Positions 46,823 to 50,704 of a stretch of DNA of 64,000 nt are shown here, one piece after another. A program made the position numbers and the translations under genes. The DNA is taken from assembly GCF_000253155.1 (NCBI RefSeq), contig NC_015291.1, positions 1,335,001 to 1,399,000 on the forward strand. The letters run 5' to 3'. The DNA comes from Streptococcus oralis Uo5. Lineage in GTDB: Bacteria > Bacillota > Bacilli > Lactobacillales > Streptococcaceae. Every line of letters begins with the position of its first letter. Within the stretch, counting starts at the first letter, position 1. Below the pieces are notes generated by a model. It was not told the origin of the DNA. It saw only the letters and a list, made by a program, of their open reading frames with translations, and made no database searches.

Positions 46823-47815
46823 TTAGAGCTCCTTTCGATAGAAGCGACGGATAATATCCTCGATATCCGTATCCACCATCTTCAAATCGCGGATTTCAAA
46901 ATCAGACAGGGTTTGCTTGATAATCTCAGCCGACTGGTAGCGAGAACTGTCGAATTCAATACTGAGGCTGTTTCCTTGTCTATCAATGGTCATATCCGAA
47001 GAGCCTTCATAGTGAGAGACAAGATGACTTTGCCCTGGTAGCAGTTCAAAGGAAAGAGTCTTCATCTTGCCAAAGGTTTCCTTGAGCTGGCTAACCGTTC
47101 CATCAAAAATCTCTTGCCCCTTATCAATCATAAAAATTCGATCACAGAGTTGCTCAATGTCGCTCAGGTCGTGAGTGGTCAAGAGGATAGTTGTTTCTTC
47201 CTCCTGATTGATCTGGGTAATAGCCCGGCGAATATTGTCCTTGACGGAAACATCCAGACCAATGGTCGGTTCATCTAAAAAGAGAACCTTGGGATTGTGG
47301 AGCAAGGAAGCCGCAATATCCGCCCGCATCCGTTGCCCCAGTGAAAGAGTCCGCACGGGGTCCTTGATAAATTCCTTCAAATCCAAGACTTCATTCAAAA
47401 AATCCATGCGCTTATGAAAGAGCGAGTCTGGCACATCGTAAATCTCTTTCAAGACCGTGTAGGTCTCTTGCAGGGCCAGATCCCACCATAGCTGGGTTCG
47501 TTGTCCAAAGACAACTCCAATATCCTTGACATAATCTTGGCGATTGTCCTGAGGAATCTTGCCATTGATTCGACAATAACCCGATGTCGGCTTCAAAATT
47601 CCTGTCAGCATTTTAATGGTTGTCGACTTCCCAGCACCATTTGCTCCGATAAAGCCTAAAATTTGGCCTTTTGGAACTTCAAAGGTCAAATCCTTGACCG
47701 CTTCAAAGGTCTGCTTTTCAGGATGAATAAAGGAGCGCAAAGCCCCCTTCAAGCCTGGTTCCTTTACTGTCTTCACAAAATTTTTCTGAAGATGTTCCAC
47801 TTCTATCATTGCCAT
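46823..47815 (-). CDS. ABC-2 type transporter ATPase
   Basis: A 330-residue ATPase. Walker A is GANGAGKSTTIKML near residue 54, the signature SLGQRMRADIAASLL near 157, and Walker B VLFLDEPTIGLD. A C-terminal extension of about 85 residues follows the ABC domain, as in DrrA/NatA-type exporters. First gene of a three-gene operon with a strong promoter (47927-47955). It resembles the DUF990-linked ATPases of streptococci; the exported substrate is unknown. Confidence 0.9.
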   Translation of the reverse strand: MAMIEVEHLQKNFVKTVKEPGLKGALRSFIHPEKQTFEAVKDLTFEVPKGQILGFIGANGAGKSTTIKMLTGILKPTSGYCRINGKIPQDNRQDYVKDIGVVFGQRTQLWWDLALQETYTVLKEIYDVPDSLFHKRMDFLNEVLDLKEFIKDPVRTLSLGQRMRADIAASLLHNPKVLFLDEPTIGLDVSVKDNIRRAITQINQEEETTILLTTHDLSDIEQLCDRIFMIDKGQEIFDGTVSQLKETFGKMKTLSFELLPGQSHLVSHYEGSSDMTIDRQGNSLSIEFDSSRYQSAEIIKQTLSDFEIRDLKMVDTDIEDIIRRFYRKEL

Positions 47816-47926
47816 AAATCTCTCCCTATCGCAAGGAATTGCAACATTGTATTTTTGATTACAAATATCTAAATCCTTACTTTCTACACCTTCTCAATAT
47901 TATTACAGAAGGCTTTATACCAACCT

Positions 47927-47964
47927 ATTATAGTCCAATAAAAAATAGAATGCAAGCGTTTGCC
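47927..47964 (-). promoter_or_regulatory. ABC-2 operon promoter with cre-like word
   Basis: TTGCAT (47955-47950), 17 bp, TATAAT (47932-47927). Overlapping the -35 is GGCAAACGCTTGCAT (47964-47950), a cre-like palindrome with two mismatches. The rest of 47816-48044 is featureless AT-rich sequence. Confidence 0.6.
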
Positions 47965-48044
47965 TATAGATTATGAAATTAGAGATTTCTCTCTTAAAAT
48001 AATACTTTTAAACAAAAATTCTGGTTTAGTAGTTTCCTTAAAAC

Positions 48045-48072
48045 ACCAAAAAACCTGCCCAATGGGCAGGTT
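48045..48072 (-). repeat. fba-type terminator, distal copy (left border of accessory cassette)
   Basis: 28 bases match 49773-49800 except two positions in the stem. AACCTGCCC-ATT-GGGCAGGTT with T run on the minus strand terminates the cassette's three-gene operon. With the copy at fba it flanks 1.7 kb. Confidence 0.85.
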
Positions 48073-48129
48073 GGTTGATTAAATTAATTAAAAATATATC
48101 TAATGTAGTAAATCAAAACTCACAAAAAT

Positions 48130-48336
48130 CTAAAAACCTAAACGTTCTTGATCCCAATTGCCATACTCATCATATCCAAATCCATCAGGATCCATTGCAT
48201 CAATACCACATTGTTCTAGAAATCTTGAACAGTCATGACAGCAGTAATCTTCATATCTTTCATCACTAGCTTCCCAATCAATTTCCTTTTTTGTAAACTG
48301 TTGTAAACACTCTTTACATTCGTATAGTTTTGCCAT
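48130..48336 (-). CDS. Small Cys-rich acidic protein of unknown function
   Basis: A 68-residue protein with four zinc-ribbon-like cysteines (YECKECLQQF and DYCCHDCSRF) and an acidic, Tyr/Gly-rich tail (DAMDPDGFGYDEYGNWDQE). Not recognised. Ribosome site GAGG before ATG 48336. It is the last gene of the divergent three-gene minus-strand operon of the accessory cassette. The base composition is AT-rich like its neighbours. Confidence 0.65.
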   Translation of the reverse strand: MAKLYECKECLQQFTKKEIDWEASDERYEDYCCHDCSRFLEQCGIDAMDPDGFGYDEYGNWDQERLGF

Positions 48337-48350
48337 AATATTACCTCTTT

Positions 48351-48701
48351 TTAATTTTCATTAAAATTTTCAATATAATCAATAATTTTTAATTTCATAG
48401 ATTTTGTGATTAGAGATTTTTTTACCAATTCAACGAGTTCTTCTTTCGAAGTTGTTTTAAGATGTTCTTTAAGAACAAGTTTTGTAATATTTTCAATACC
48501 AAACTCAGTTATTTTATCAGCTAATAAACCTATAGTTCCTAAAAGAACTAATCCTCCAACCATACCAAATGCTCCAAGTCCAAGAGCAGCTAAGGCTGTT
48601 GTTAGCGCTGCCCCACCTGCTAACCCTGTCGCACTCATAGCTATCATTAGTATTACAGATGGAAAACCAAAAGCTGCTATTTTTCTAACAAGTTCATCCA
48701 T
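48351..48701 (-). CDS. Small Gly/Ala-rich membrane hairpin protein of unknown function
   Basis: A 116-residue protein. Residues 10-60 are two hydrophobic segments rich in Gly and Ala (FPSVILMIAMSATGLAGGAA; ALGLGAFGMVGGLVLLGTIG). Residues 65-116 form a basic amphipathic helical tail (KEELVELVKKSLITKSMKLK). No family recognised with confidence. The GG-spaced hairpin resembles small pore- or channel-type proteins, which is inference only. Ribosome site GGGGAG. Middle gene of the operon. Confidence 0.7.
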   Translation of the reverse strand: MDELVRKIAAFGFPSVILMIAMSATGLAGGAALTTALAALGLGAFGMVGGLVLLGTIGLLADKITEFGIENITKLVLKEHLKTTSKEELVELVKKSLITKSMKLKIIDYIENFNEN

Positions 48702-48760
48702 TATAACTCCCCTTTATTTTATATTACCCTACTTTTAATGAATTAACCACAATATATGAA

Positions 48761-48964
48761 TTAATCAATCCAATTTTGGTATTTTTTGTTTAGTATTTTT
48801 GCACATTCTAAAACACTGAAGTCACTAGATTCTAAAAAATCTAGTTCTGGTCCTTTATTGTTTATCAAAAAGTCCGTAAACTTTTTAGTAATTATGTTCT
48901 TTCTAACCAATAGAAAGAAACACAAACAAATTAACAATAAGATAAACGTCAATTGAATATCCAT
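48761..48964 (-). CDS. Small single-helix membrane protein of unknown function
   Basis: A 67-residue protein with an N-terminal membrane helix (IQLTFILLLICLCFFLLV) and a polar C-terminal part (KFTDFLINNKGPELDFLESS). Not recognised. AGAGGAG precedes ATG 48964. First gene of the operon; its leader is about 130 nt, with no clear structure. Confidence 0.65.
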   Translation of the reverse strand: MDIQLTFILLLICLCFFLLVRKNIITKKFTDFLINNKGPELDFLESSDFSVLECAKILNKKYQNWID

Positions 48965-49100
48965 AAAAACACTCCTCTTAATTTTTAATAAATAGTTTTA
49001 CTGTTAATCATAAAGAAGATAATATTAAAAATTCCTCTTTATTTTATCCTTTGTAATAATCAATCTTATAATTCAAATCCCTTCTACTTTTAGTATATAT

Positions 49101-49129
49101 AGTATAATATAAAATATTATACTTGTCAA
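49101..49129 (-). promoter_or_regulatory. Cassette promoter with perfect inverted-repeat operator
   Basis: TTGACA (49129-49124), 17 bp, TATACT (49106-49101). The inverted repeat AGTATAATAT-AAA-ATATTATACT (49101-49123) fills the whole spacer and the -10. A dimeric regulator bound here would exclude polymerase. The adjacent divergent XRE gene is the obvious candidate. Confidence 0.75.
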
Positions 49130-49226
49130 TTATTTTTTATAAGGTATATAATTTTAGTGTGGTCAACTATTTAAATTTTATTGTATTTTTGTTATAATAG
49201 AAGTAGAAAATTATAGGTAAGAAGAT

Positions 49227-49688
49227 ATGTTAAAAGAAAAATATCCATCAACAGAAGATACAAGAGCAATTCTACAAAATAACCTAAAAGCTATTCGTGA
49301 GATTTTAAATTGGACAAGTTTAGATCTTAGCAATCTTATAGGAGTTACTAAACAAACCATCAGTAATCTTGAAACTCAAAAAAGTAGATTAACAAAACTT
49401 CACTATATTGCATTACGTACCGTAATAGATTTCGAAATTGAAAATTTAAAAACAACAGATCAAGACAGAGCTGATAGAGCAGAGTTGTTGCTAAATTTTT
49501 TTGATGAATCAGAAAAATATGCAGTATCTGAGAAAAAATCTATAGATTTAGAACAAATTAGTGAAGCATCTTCATTAATTGCAACTACTTCTACTGTTAA
49601 AAATGCTTCTAGAATCATTGCCTCGCTTGCACCAATTATTGGGGCAACAGTCGTTGCAGCCTTAATGAACTCAAAAGATAAGAAATAA
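49227..49688 (+). CDS. XRE-family regulator with hydrophobic C-terminal tail
   Basis: A 153-residue protein. The N-terminal helix-turn-helix (LDLSNLIGVTKQTISNLETQ, residues about 32-51) is typical XRE. A helical linker with acidic residues follows. The C-terminus (NASRIIASLAPIIGATVVAA) is hydrophobic enough to insert in or lie on the membrane. TATAAT at 49193-49198 and GGTAAGAAG precede ATG. It is divergent from the three small genes, whose promoter carries the inverted repeat. Confidence 0.82.
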   Translation: MLKEKYPSTEDTRAILQNNLKAIREILNWTSLDLSNLIGVTKQTISNLETQKSRLTKLHYIALRTVIDFEIENLKTTDQDRADRAELLLNFFDESEKYAVSEKKSIDLEQISEASSLIATTSTVKNASRIIASLAPIIGATVVAALMNSKDKK

Positions 49689-49772
49689 AATTTATTTCGT
49701 AAAAATAAAACAAAAAGTAAAAACTTCTAGTCGTTTTTGCTTTTTTATCTACAACAAAAAACTTTTCTATAA

Positions 49773-49800
49773 ACCAAAAAACCCACCCAATGGGCAGGTT
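49773..49800 (-). terminator. fba terminator (right border of accessory cassette)
   Basis: AACCTGCCC-ATT-GGGTGGGTT then TTTTTT on the minus strand, 22 bases after the fba stop. It is repeated at 48045-48072. Confidence 0.88.
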
Positions 49801-49822
49801 TCATCTGTATTGTTCAGCTAGA

Positions 49823-50704
49823 TTAAGCTTTACCTTCTGAACCGAATACGTCGATACGTTCTTCAACTGATGCTTGGATAGCTTTTACACCGTCAGCCAA
49901 GAATTTACGTGGGTCGAAGAGTTTCTTCTTGTCGTATTCAGCTTCGTTTGCTTCGTAGTCACGAGCAAATTTACGAGTTGCGTTAGCGAATGCGATTTGG
50001 CATTCAGTGTTAACGTTAACTTTCGCAACACCAAGTTTGATAGCTGCTTGGATTTGGTCATCAGGGATACCTGAACCACCGTGCAATACGATTGGGAAGC
50101 CTGGAAGAGCTTCTGTCAATTTCTTCAAGTGGTCAAGGTCAAGACCTTCCCAGTTTGCTGGGTAAGGACCGTGGATGTTACCGATACCAGCTGCCAAGAA
50201 GTCGATACCAGTTGCAACCATTGCTTTAGCGTCTTCGATTGGAGCCAACTCACCTTTACCGATGATACCGTCTTCTTCACCACCGATAGTACCAACTTCA
50301 GCTTCTACTGAGATACCTTTAGCGTGTGCTTTTTCAACAACGTCTTTAGCCAACTTAAGGTTTTCTTCAACTGGAAGGTGTGAACCGTCAAACATGATTG
50401 AAGTGTAACCAACTTCGATACACTCAAGTGCATCTTCGTAGTGACCGTGGTCAAGGTGGATAGCTACTGGTACAGTGATACCCATTGACTCAACAAGGTT
50501 AGCGATCAAGTTGCGAGCAACTTTGTAACCACCCATGTATTTAGCAGCACCCATTGAAGTTTGGATCAAAACTGGAGCTTTTTTAGCTTCTGCTGCACGC
50601 AAGATAGCTTGAGTCCACTCAAGGTTGTTTGTGTTAAATCCACCAACTGCATAACCGTTGTCACGAGCTGCTTGGACAAATTTTTCTGCTGAAACGATTG
50701 CCAT
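49823..50704 (-). CDS. fba: Class II fructose-1,6-bisphosphate aldolase
   Basis: A 293-residue zinc aldolase of glycolysis, splitting fructose-1,6-bisphosphate to DHAP and G3P. Zinc and catalytic residues lie in VPVAIHLDHGHYEDALECIE, EAEVGTIGGEEDGIIG, GIGNIHGPYPANW and the phosphate loop VLHGGSGIPDD. Length and codon use (highly biased) are typical of a highly expressed glycolytic gene. It lies downstream of vncS. The ribosome site GGAGG is strong. Confidence 0.97.
   Translation of the reverse strand: MAIVSAEKFVQAARDNGYAVGGFNTNNLEWTQAILRAAEAKKAPVLIQTSMGAAKYMGGYKVARNLIANLVESMGITVPVAIHLDHGHYEDALECIEVGYTSIMFDGSHLPVEENLKLAKDVVEKAHAKGISVEAEVGTIGGEEDGIIGKGELAPIEDAKAMVATGIDFLAAGIGNIHGPYPANWEGLDLDHLKKLTEALPGFPIVLHGGSGIPDDQIQAAIKLGVAKVNVNTECQIAFANATRKFARDYEANEAEYDKKKLFDPRKFLADGVKAIQASVEERIDVFGSEGKA

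Follow-up and report, generated by a model that had tools for sequence, protein, structure and literature searches.

A four-gene cassette at a probable exchange hotspot downstream of fba in Streptococcus oralis Uo5, with a possible role in phage defence

The cassette and its four genes

We analysed a 64,000-nucleotide window of the Streptococcus oralis Uo5 genome (contig NC_015291.1, positions 1,335,001 to 1,399,000). The ORF list of this window placed four genes, A to D, at positions 48130-49688, with the XRE regulator gene A divergent from B-C-D (Table 1). The GC content was 0.273 over 48080-49770, compared with 0.446 in fba and 0.409 over the whole window, and the block is flanked by two copies of a direct repeat identical at 26 of 28 positions, both of which score as terminators. 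The four-gene AT-rich block between two terminator copies described in an earlier note on this DNA was thus recovered in full. Comparing the 100-nt sequences at the two ends of the block gave 26 as the highest 28-mer identity, whereas 200 mononucleotide shuffles reached at most 20 (mean 16.5), so the two terminators resemble each other more than random sequence would, a point on which the earlier proposal had been made to depend. A search of the whole 1.96-Mb genome with the terminator pattern (at most 3 mismatches) returned these two sites and a third match, produced by the distal palindrome read on its other strand, and the backward control of the pattern returned 0 matches genome-wide. An Rfam search of 47800-49900 gave no match at E <= 0.1.

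Table 1. Features of the cassette and its flanks, in window coordinates
Feature	Position	Strand	Basis or remark
ABC transporter ATPase gene	46823..47815	-	right anchor of hotspot
Distal terminator	48052..48072 (repeat copy 48045-48072)	-	constant part of ABC-side flank
Gene D, acidic zinc-ribbon-like protein, 68 aa	48130..48336	-	CxxC...CxxC; putative zinc binding, from the Cys pattern
Gene C, Gly/Ala-rich helical-hairpin membrane protein with helical C-terminal part, 116 aa	48351..48701	-	exchangeable slot
Gene B, one transmembrane helix and soluble tail, 67 aa	48761..48964	-	
Candidate operator, 23-bp palindrome	49101..49123	.	sole mismatch at centre; overlaps B promoter; putative operator role
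B promoter-like site, TTGACA-17-TATACT	49129-49101	-	
Candidate gene A promoter, TTTAAA-17-TATAAT with TG	49170..49198	+	
Gene A, XRE/HTH regulator with hydrophobic C-terminal tail, 153 aa	49227..49688	+	HTH_3 (E 5.7e-6); tail hydropathy
fba (proximal) terminator	49778..49802 (repeat copy 49773-49800)	-	same single terminator at empty sites
fba	49823..50704	-	left anchor of hotspot

The AlphaFold model of A (mean pLDDT 89) consists of an HTH domain followed by helices and the hydrophobic tail, in which the peak hydropathy window starts at residue 130. Peak 19-residue tail hydropathy was 1.80-2.23 in 14 of the 15 A-family members examined and 1.26 in the remaining one (L112). By sequence against the PDB, the HTH of A resembles HipB (5.3e-7). 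Foldseek returned nothing for A at E <= 0.001; the best match (0.026) was a repressor of a phage-inducible island, and HipB and restriction-controller proteins followed among the lower matches. In the alignment of A-B intergenic regions, a TTGACAA stretch corresponding to the B -35 element was kept in 9/9 sequences, as was a TTATAAT stretch (9/9), and the 23-bp palindrome of the window was not kept in a more distant subtype. A may autoregulate, with the divergent promoters serving as a shared control region.

The membrane helix of B is strong (hydropathy 2.6), in agreement with the single-helix protein of the earlier note; the length of 67 aa given there turned out to be the product of a frameshift near the C-terminus, with relatives measuring 79-83 aa. 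Since the lost end is conserved in relatives, the window's copy of the cassette may have lost some of its function, or else the end of B may be dispensable. The frameshift itself could be a sequencing error or real decay. An apparent likeness of the B tail to ribosomal L7/L12 was dropped, as two full-length B relatives gave no such Pfam match. Among 20 hand-picked genomes, B was present in 10/10 that carry D and in 0/10 that lack it, and no B relative was found in plasmids.

The first ~65 residues of C are hydrophobic and contain invariant glycines, and its end is soluble and helical. C gave no match by sequence against the PDB, and its structural model was poor (pLDDT 67), with all Foldseek matches at meaningless E values above 3. 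D contains 6 Cys, including two CxxC pairs, and 18 Asp/Glu against 7 Lys/Arg; PDB matches of D to C2H2 fingers and other cysteine-rich proteins (E 0.00067 or worse) were taken as chance. Profiles of Pfam, NCBIfam, PADLOC and PHROGs identified the HTH of A; B, C and D gave no convincing match. The earlier note had recognised no family for the three small proteins and had called for profile and structure searches on B and C; these searches left its assessment standing, and the cassette has no name in any of the four profile libraries. B, C and D would act at the membrane.

Exchange at the fba 3' end and within the cassette

We sought fba in 59 relatives, of which 42 matched, and fetched 30 loci, the window's own included. 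Directly comparable were the 11 of these 30 with the same type of upstream kinase gene, which we take to be vncS. These comprised one cassette (the window), three sites empty before the ABC gene, six with a hydrolase gene and one with an AbiTii block. At the empty sites (G001, G029 and G031), the ABC gene begins 234-480 bases past fba, and one fba-type terminator is joined straight to the sequence that follows the distal terminator in the window; the block is therefore absent as a unit with one terminator left, as the earlier note had anticipated for such a comparison. At the AbiTii locus (G019; L102/L115), the AbiTii protein (Pfam 8.8e-26) is accompanied by an XRE gene and by three proteins that have strongly hydrophobic segments. 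A transposase, presumably of the IS30 type, also lies at this locus. In G169, the order A-B-C-D occurs within the same flanking genes, other genes being present as well; the cassette DNA is 68% identical to that of the window, and the cargo includes a NOV_C protein (1.8e-15). In two genomes taken as S. infantis (G166, L015; G222, L014), A, B, C and D occupy the same site in this order and are followed by the hydrolase.

The distal terminator also bounds the hydrolase cargo, which in G007, G032 and G034 lies between proximal and distal copies, and the variant cassettes of G062 and G162, in which a 134-aa protein (C134) stands in for C; this makes it a constant element of the ABC side. Accordingly, the accessory cassette that the earlier note placed at the fba 3' end was upheld, and its proposal of insertion by recombination needed refinement, the distal terminator belonging to the ABC-side flank. 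Because the same flanks enclose empty, cassette, hydrolase, AbiTii and variant-cassette states, the fba 3' end is a cassette hotspot. We consider it very probable that the four genes form a cassette that is exchanged horizontally, in a hotspot bounded by terminators between fba and the ABC-transporter operon. The states found are compatible with gain by exchange as well as with loss between the repeats. No recombinase was found among the window's four cassette genes (ORF list, Pfam, NCBIfam), though homologous exchange would suffice for mobility.

How much the repeat contributes to this exchange is a separate matter, compatible with any function of the cassette. The terminator repeat may be incidental: fba and the hydrolase gene would have similar terminators, and transformation with homologous flanks would have swapped the DNA between them. 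The constancy of the distal terminator on the ABC side, where it bounds hydrolase cargo (G007, G032, G034), argues for such a course, and so does competence, mitis-group streptococci being naturally competent. However, the fba-type terminator joined to the ABC-side flank at the empty sites fits a cross-over inside the repeat. We regard an incidental repeat as a serious candidate, at a confidence somewhat short of even.

The cassette genes are far from universal in streptococci, and their constant presence, which would have spoken against an accessory block, was not observed. C was found in 6/197 genomes of the genus at E <= 1e-3, including the window's own genome and two orphan copies, in 6/395 genomes of the order at E <= 1e-8, and at phylum level in 1/398, the own genome only. 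D was found in 10/284 genus genomes, at 12 places. In a genome taken as S. australis (G024, L019), the order A-B-C-D lies at another site. The orphan C-family genes of two other streptococci (L012 7755-8162; L013 6584-6928) are flanked by polC-like and marR-like genes, and A, B and D were absent from the ORFs read around them.

Exchange also reached individual genes. In G062, identity to the window is 91% over the stretch running from vncS by way of fba, A and B to position 48712; homology is lost over C, and from 48351 onwards, across D as far as the ABC gene, the two sequences align again (89%). An unrelated 134-aa gene occupies the place of C between the conserved B and D. In G162, homology ends at 49763, beside the proximal terminator; a 297-aa HTH protein takes the place of A, and B, the 134-aa protein and D follow in that order. 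In the B of this genome (L050 6586-6825), the first half is divergent and the end resembles that of the window's relatives, pointing to recombination inside B. A protein resembling by eye the 134-aa one is fused to D in G248. Cassettes of A, B and D without C occur at three places in G170 and one in G249 (L045-L048), where they adjoin proteins of 471, 571, 570 and 577 aa with an RNGYFHKH motif. RX4-6H is the HEPN ribonuclease motif; profile searches gave no support for HEPN in these RNGYFHKH proteins.

Pairwise dN/dS between relatives was below 0.4 except for the sole C134 pair (0.50) and a nearly identical D pair (0.41), among computable pairs only, with five pairs saturated or at zero dS and the window's own B left out. 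For A, dN/dS was 0.08 against G166 and 0.24 against G062. These results indicate that the cassette genes are mostly under purifying selection.

Relatives, their neighbourhoods and named defence systems

One scan of named genome contigs yielded 19 loci with C relatives, in Streptococcus, Enterococcus, Clostridium, Peptostreptococcaceae and Moorena and in metagenome-assembled genomes labelled Bacillota, Oscillospiraceae, Brevinema and Poribacteria; further C relatives lie on Lactococcus and Leuconostoc plasmids. The earlier note had suggested looking at neighbourhoods in other genera, and some relatives there lie beside or fused to defence genes (Mrr, Gabija, type I RM, Hachiman, IetAS). A 319-aa Moorena protein (L020 5983-6942) combines an N-terminal hairpin with an Mrr_cat domain (2.5e-34). 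On a Leuconostoc plasmid, C lies directly downstream of GajA/GajB (1.2e-187 / 1.8e-105), and in Clostridium it lies between the type I M/S genes and the R gene, inside the restriction operon. Relatives of A were found beside IetS (1.9e-297), beside a glycine-zipper protein and a PDC-M40B protein (L057; 6e-88), beside PDC-M09A/B (L111; 5.9e-102, 6.8e-178) and beside the Hachiman genes HamA/HamB (1.9e-107, 0). After the Hachiman-side relative come a 118-aa membrane protein and an 86-aa cysteine-rich protein, an arrangement that repeats the three-part plan of the cassette, and contig L016 carries, one after another, A, a membrane protein, C and a zinc-ribbon-like protein. Two relatives of A occur in viral contigs, one of them (L054) with a membrane/zinc-ribbon partner among tail-like genes. 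No relatives of C or D were found in phage records or viral contigs.

Several further observations were made among these loci. On Moorena contigs L020 and L023, several hairpin proteins are encoded one after another, and some of them are extended at the C-terminus, the Mrr_cat match coming from the one protein tested. In L058 (Fusobacterium) and L114, an A-type HTH runs into a protein of ~300 aa with a PIN-like look, followed in L058 by kinase-like and VWA-like proteins. Matches of D in Enterococcus and Lactococcus plasmids were weak (35-40% identity, E 1e-3 to 1e-2) and were set aside, the cassette being absent in the two contexts opened. One such Lactococcus plasmid ORF of 62 aa, weakly like D (L056 5004-5192), carries the label tet(X4), at 100% identity, in the resistance prediction of the plasmid database; given the size of the ORF, this looks like a labelling artefact.

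To guard against hindsight, we counted defence neighbours among 108 mechanically called ORFs of at least 120 aa within 3 kb of 26 relative loci (24 plus the two viral-contig loci), using PADLOC at 1e-30. Near the relatives 57 families matched, and the 25 listed ones, assigned to proteins as far as possible (the IetA protein by position only), correspond to 12/108 proteins among the matches listed. Six of the 26 loci (L007, L030, L053, L057, L111 and L112) had a PADLOC neighbour among the matches listed, and 20/26 had none at this threshold. Control ORFs from the rest of the window matched in 2/55 cases (mads_3) at 1e-30, so that the excess of 12/108 among the matches listed was not significant (Fisher p 0.14), in a comparison of loci that are not independent (several Moorena, Poribacteria and near-duplicate contigs) with a control from one region. 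The neighbourhood evidence for a defence role is taken as suggestive.

No cassette member matched a full defence-family model, and the comparison with named systems gave partial likenesses. With PDC-M09 and PDC-M40 the cassette shares the plan of a regulator plus membrane proteins, and it belongs to neither: the window has no M09B (no match of M09B to A-D at E <= 1), C matches PDC-M09A at 0.011 over 45 residues only, and A-D gave no M40B match at E <= 1. C aligns to positions 305-413 of the 544-position BnzA model of Bunzi (3e-5), about a fifth of that model, and the window contains no full BnzA, BnzB or TerB match. A TerB domain is listed for Bunzi in PMC10952713. The hairpin module is the one found in the Moorena Mrr-type protein, but neither the window protein nor the cassette has a recognised nuclease domain. 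Hachiman and IetAS adjoin A relatives and Gabija adjoins a C relative, whereas the streptococcal cassettes read do not lie beside these systems, as judged by eye from ORF lists. In a literature search whose scope lay outside most subscription journals and all preprints, no paper was recognised from its title or the start of its abstract as describing the cassette or the hotspot.

Function of the cassette

The observed cassette and hotspot, the exchange of modules, the purifying selection and the occurrence of some relatives beside or fused to defence genes are best read as those of a regulated, membrane-associated, defence-type cassette, which probably acts against phages. A would repress the shared divergent control region until a trigger, for example phage infection, allowed B, C and D to assemble at the membrane as a single-helix protein, a glycine-rich hairpin and a cytosolic zinc ribbon. 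The occupant of slot C would then act there, the hairpin being either a membrane-perturbing effector or a membrane tether or sensor for a nucleic-acid-targeting partner. The net outcome would be phage restriction, probably by abortive infection. This reading is favoured by the AbiTii (G019) and NOV_C (G169) cargo of the hotspot elsewhere, by C relatives at the Mrr fusion, GajA/GajB and type I RM, and by A relatives at Hachiman, IetS, PDC-M09 and PDC-M40. It is weakened by the lack of a full defence-family match, by the neighbour count (p 0.14), by the search of phage records and viral contigs, which found no C or D relative, and by the truncated B. We put the explanation as a whole, an exchanged hotspot cassette acting in phage restriction, at about an even chance, the doubt lying in its defence part.

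The association of C with nucleases admits another explanation, in which C is a general accessory for membrane tethering that accompanies nucleases and other defence proteins, and the cassette is a helper or maintenance module without antiviral action of its own. The fusion of C to Mrr in Moorena, its place as an extra gene beside GajA/GajB and in the type I RM operon, and the solitary C genes of L012 and L013 are all in keeping with this. The streptococcal A-B-C-D cassettes, however, contain no recognised nuclease, and an unrelated protein can take the slot of C; we hold a purely accessory role to be unlikely.

The earlier note had offered three functions, of which phage defence is favoured by the neighbourhoods of some relatives; toxin-antitoxin and bacteriocin/immunity found no family support. 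A toxin-antitoxin-like or plasmid/ICE maintenance module, in which A regulates, C is a small membrane toxin and B or D counteracts it, would account for the HipB-like HTH, the compact regulated operon and the presence of A or C relatives on Lactococcus and Leuconostoc plasmids typed as conjugative. Yet A falls far under the NCBIfam toxin-antitoxin cut-offs (best 24.7 vs 71.65 bits), B, C and D match no toxin family in Pfam, NCBIfam, PADLOC or PHROGs, and A differs from type II regulators in its hydrophobic tail and its divergent position outside any toxin operon; we consider such a module quite improbable. Bacteriocin production or immunity, with C as an immunity protein or bacteriocin-like membrane peptide, is very improbable: small membrane proteins at an exchangeable locus next to an ABC transporter operon, and a trace C match to halocin C8 (E 0.16), would suit it, but that match is at chance level, the ABC operon is a constant flank that also occurs where the cassette is missing, one C relative is fused to a nuclease, and Pfam and NCBIfam showed among A-D no precursor with leader, leader-processing family, dedicated exporter or known immunity family.

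Returning to phage defence, we tentatively propose a wider reading, that the cassette represents an undescribed modular anti-phage family. The HTH regulator with its hydrophobic tail, the single-pass protein and the acidic zinc ribbon would form a chassis around an exchangeable effector slot, holding the glycine-rich hairpin or the 134-aa protein, or standing empty beside large HEPN-like RNGYFHKH proteins. Such a family would circulate through the terminator-bounded hotspot in oral streptococci, with the hairpin re-used in cyanobacteria as the membrane part of a nuclease and also placed next to Gabija and type I restriction.

If the defence reading is true, the cassette would be a new small, regulated, membrane-based type of defence, and the fba 3' end a hotspot for the exchange of such cassettes among mitis-group streptococci. 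The hotspot lends itself to direct testing, since strains in the empty, cassette or AbiTii state are distinguished by a single short interval. The hairpin common to Gabija, type I restriction loci and the Mrr fusion would, if the reading is true, offer a handle on the membrane partners of some nuclease defences.
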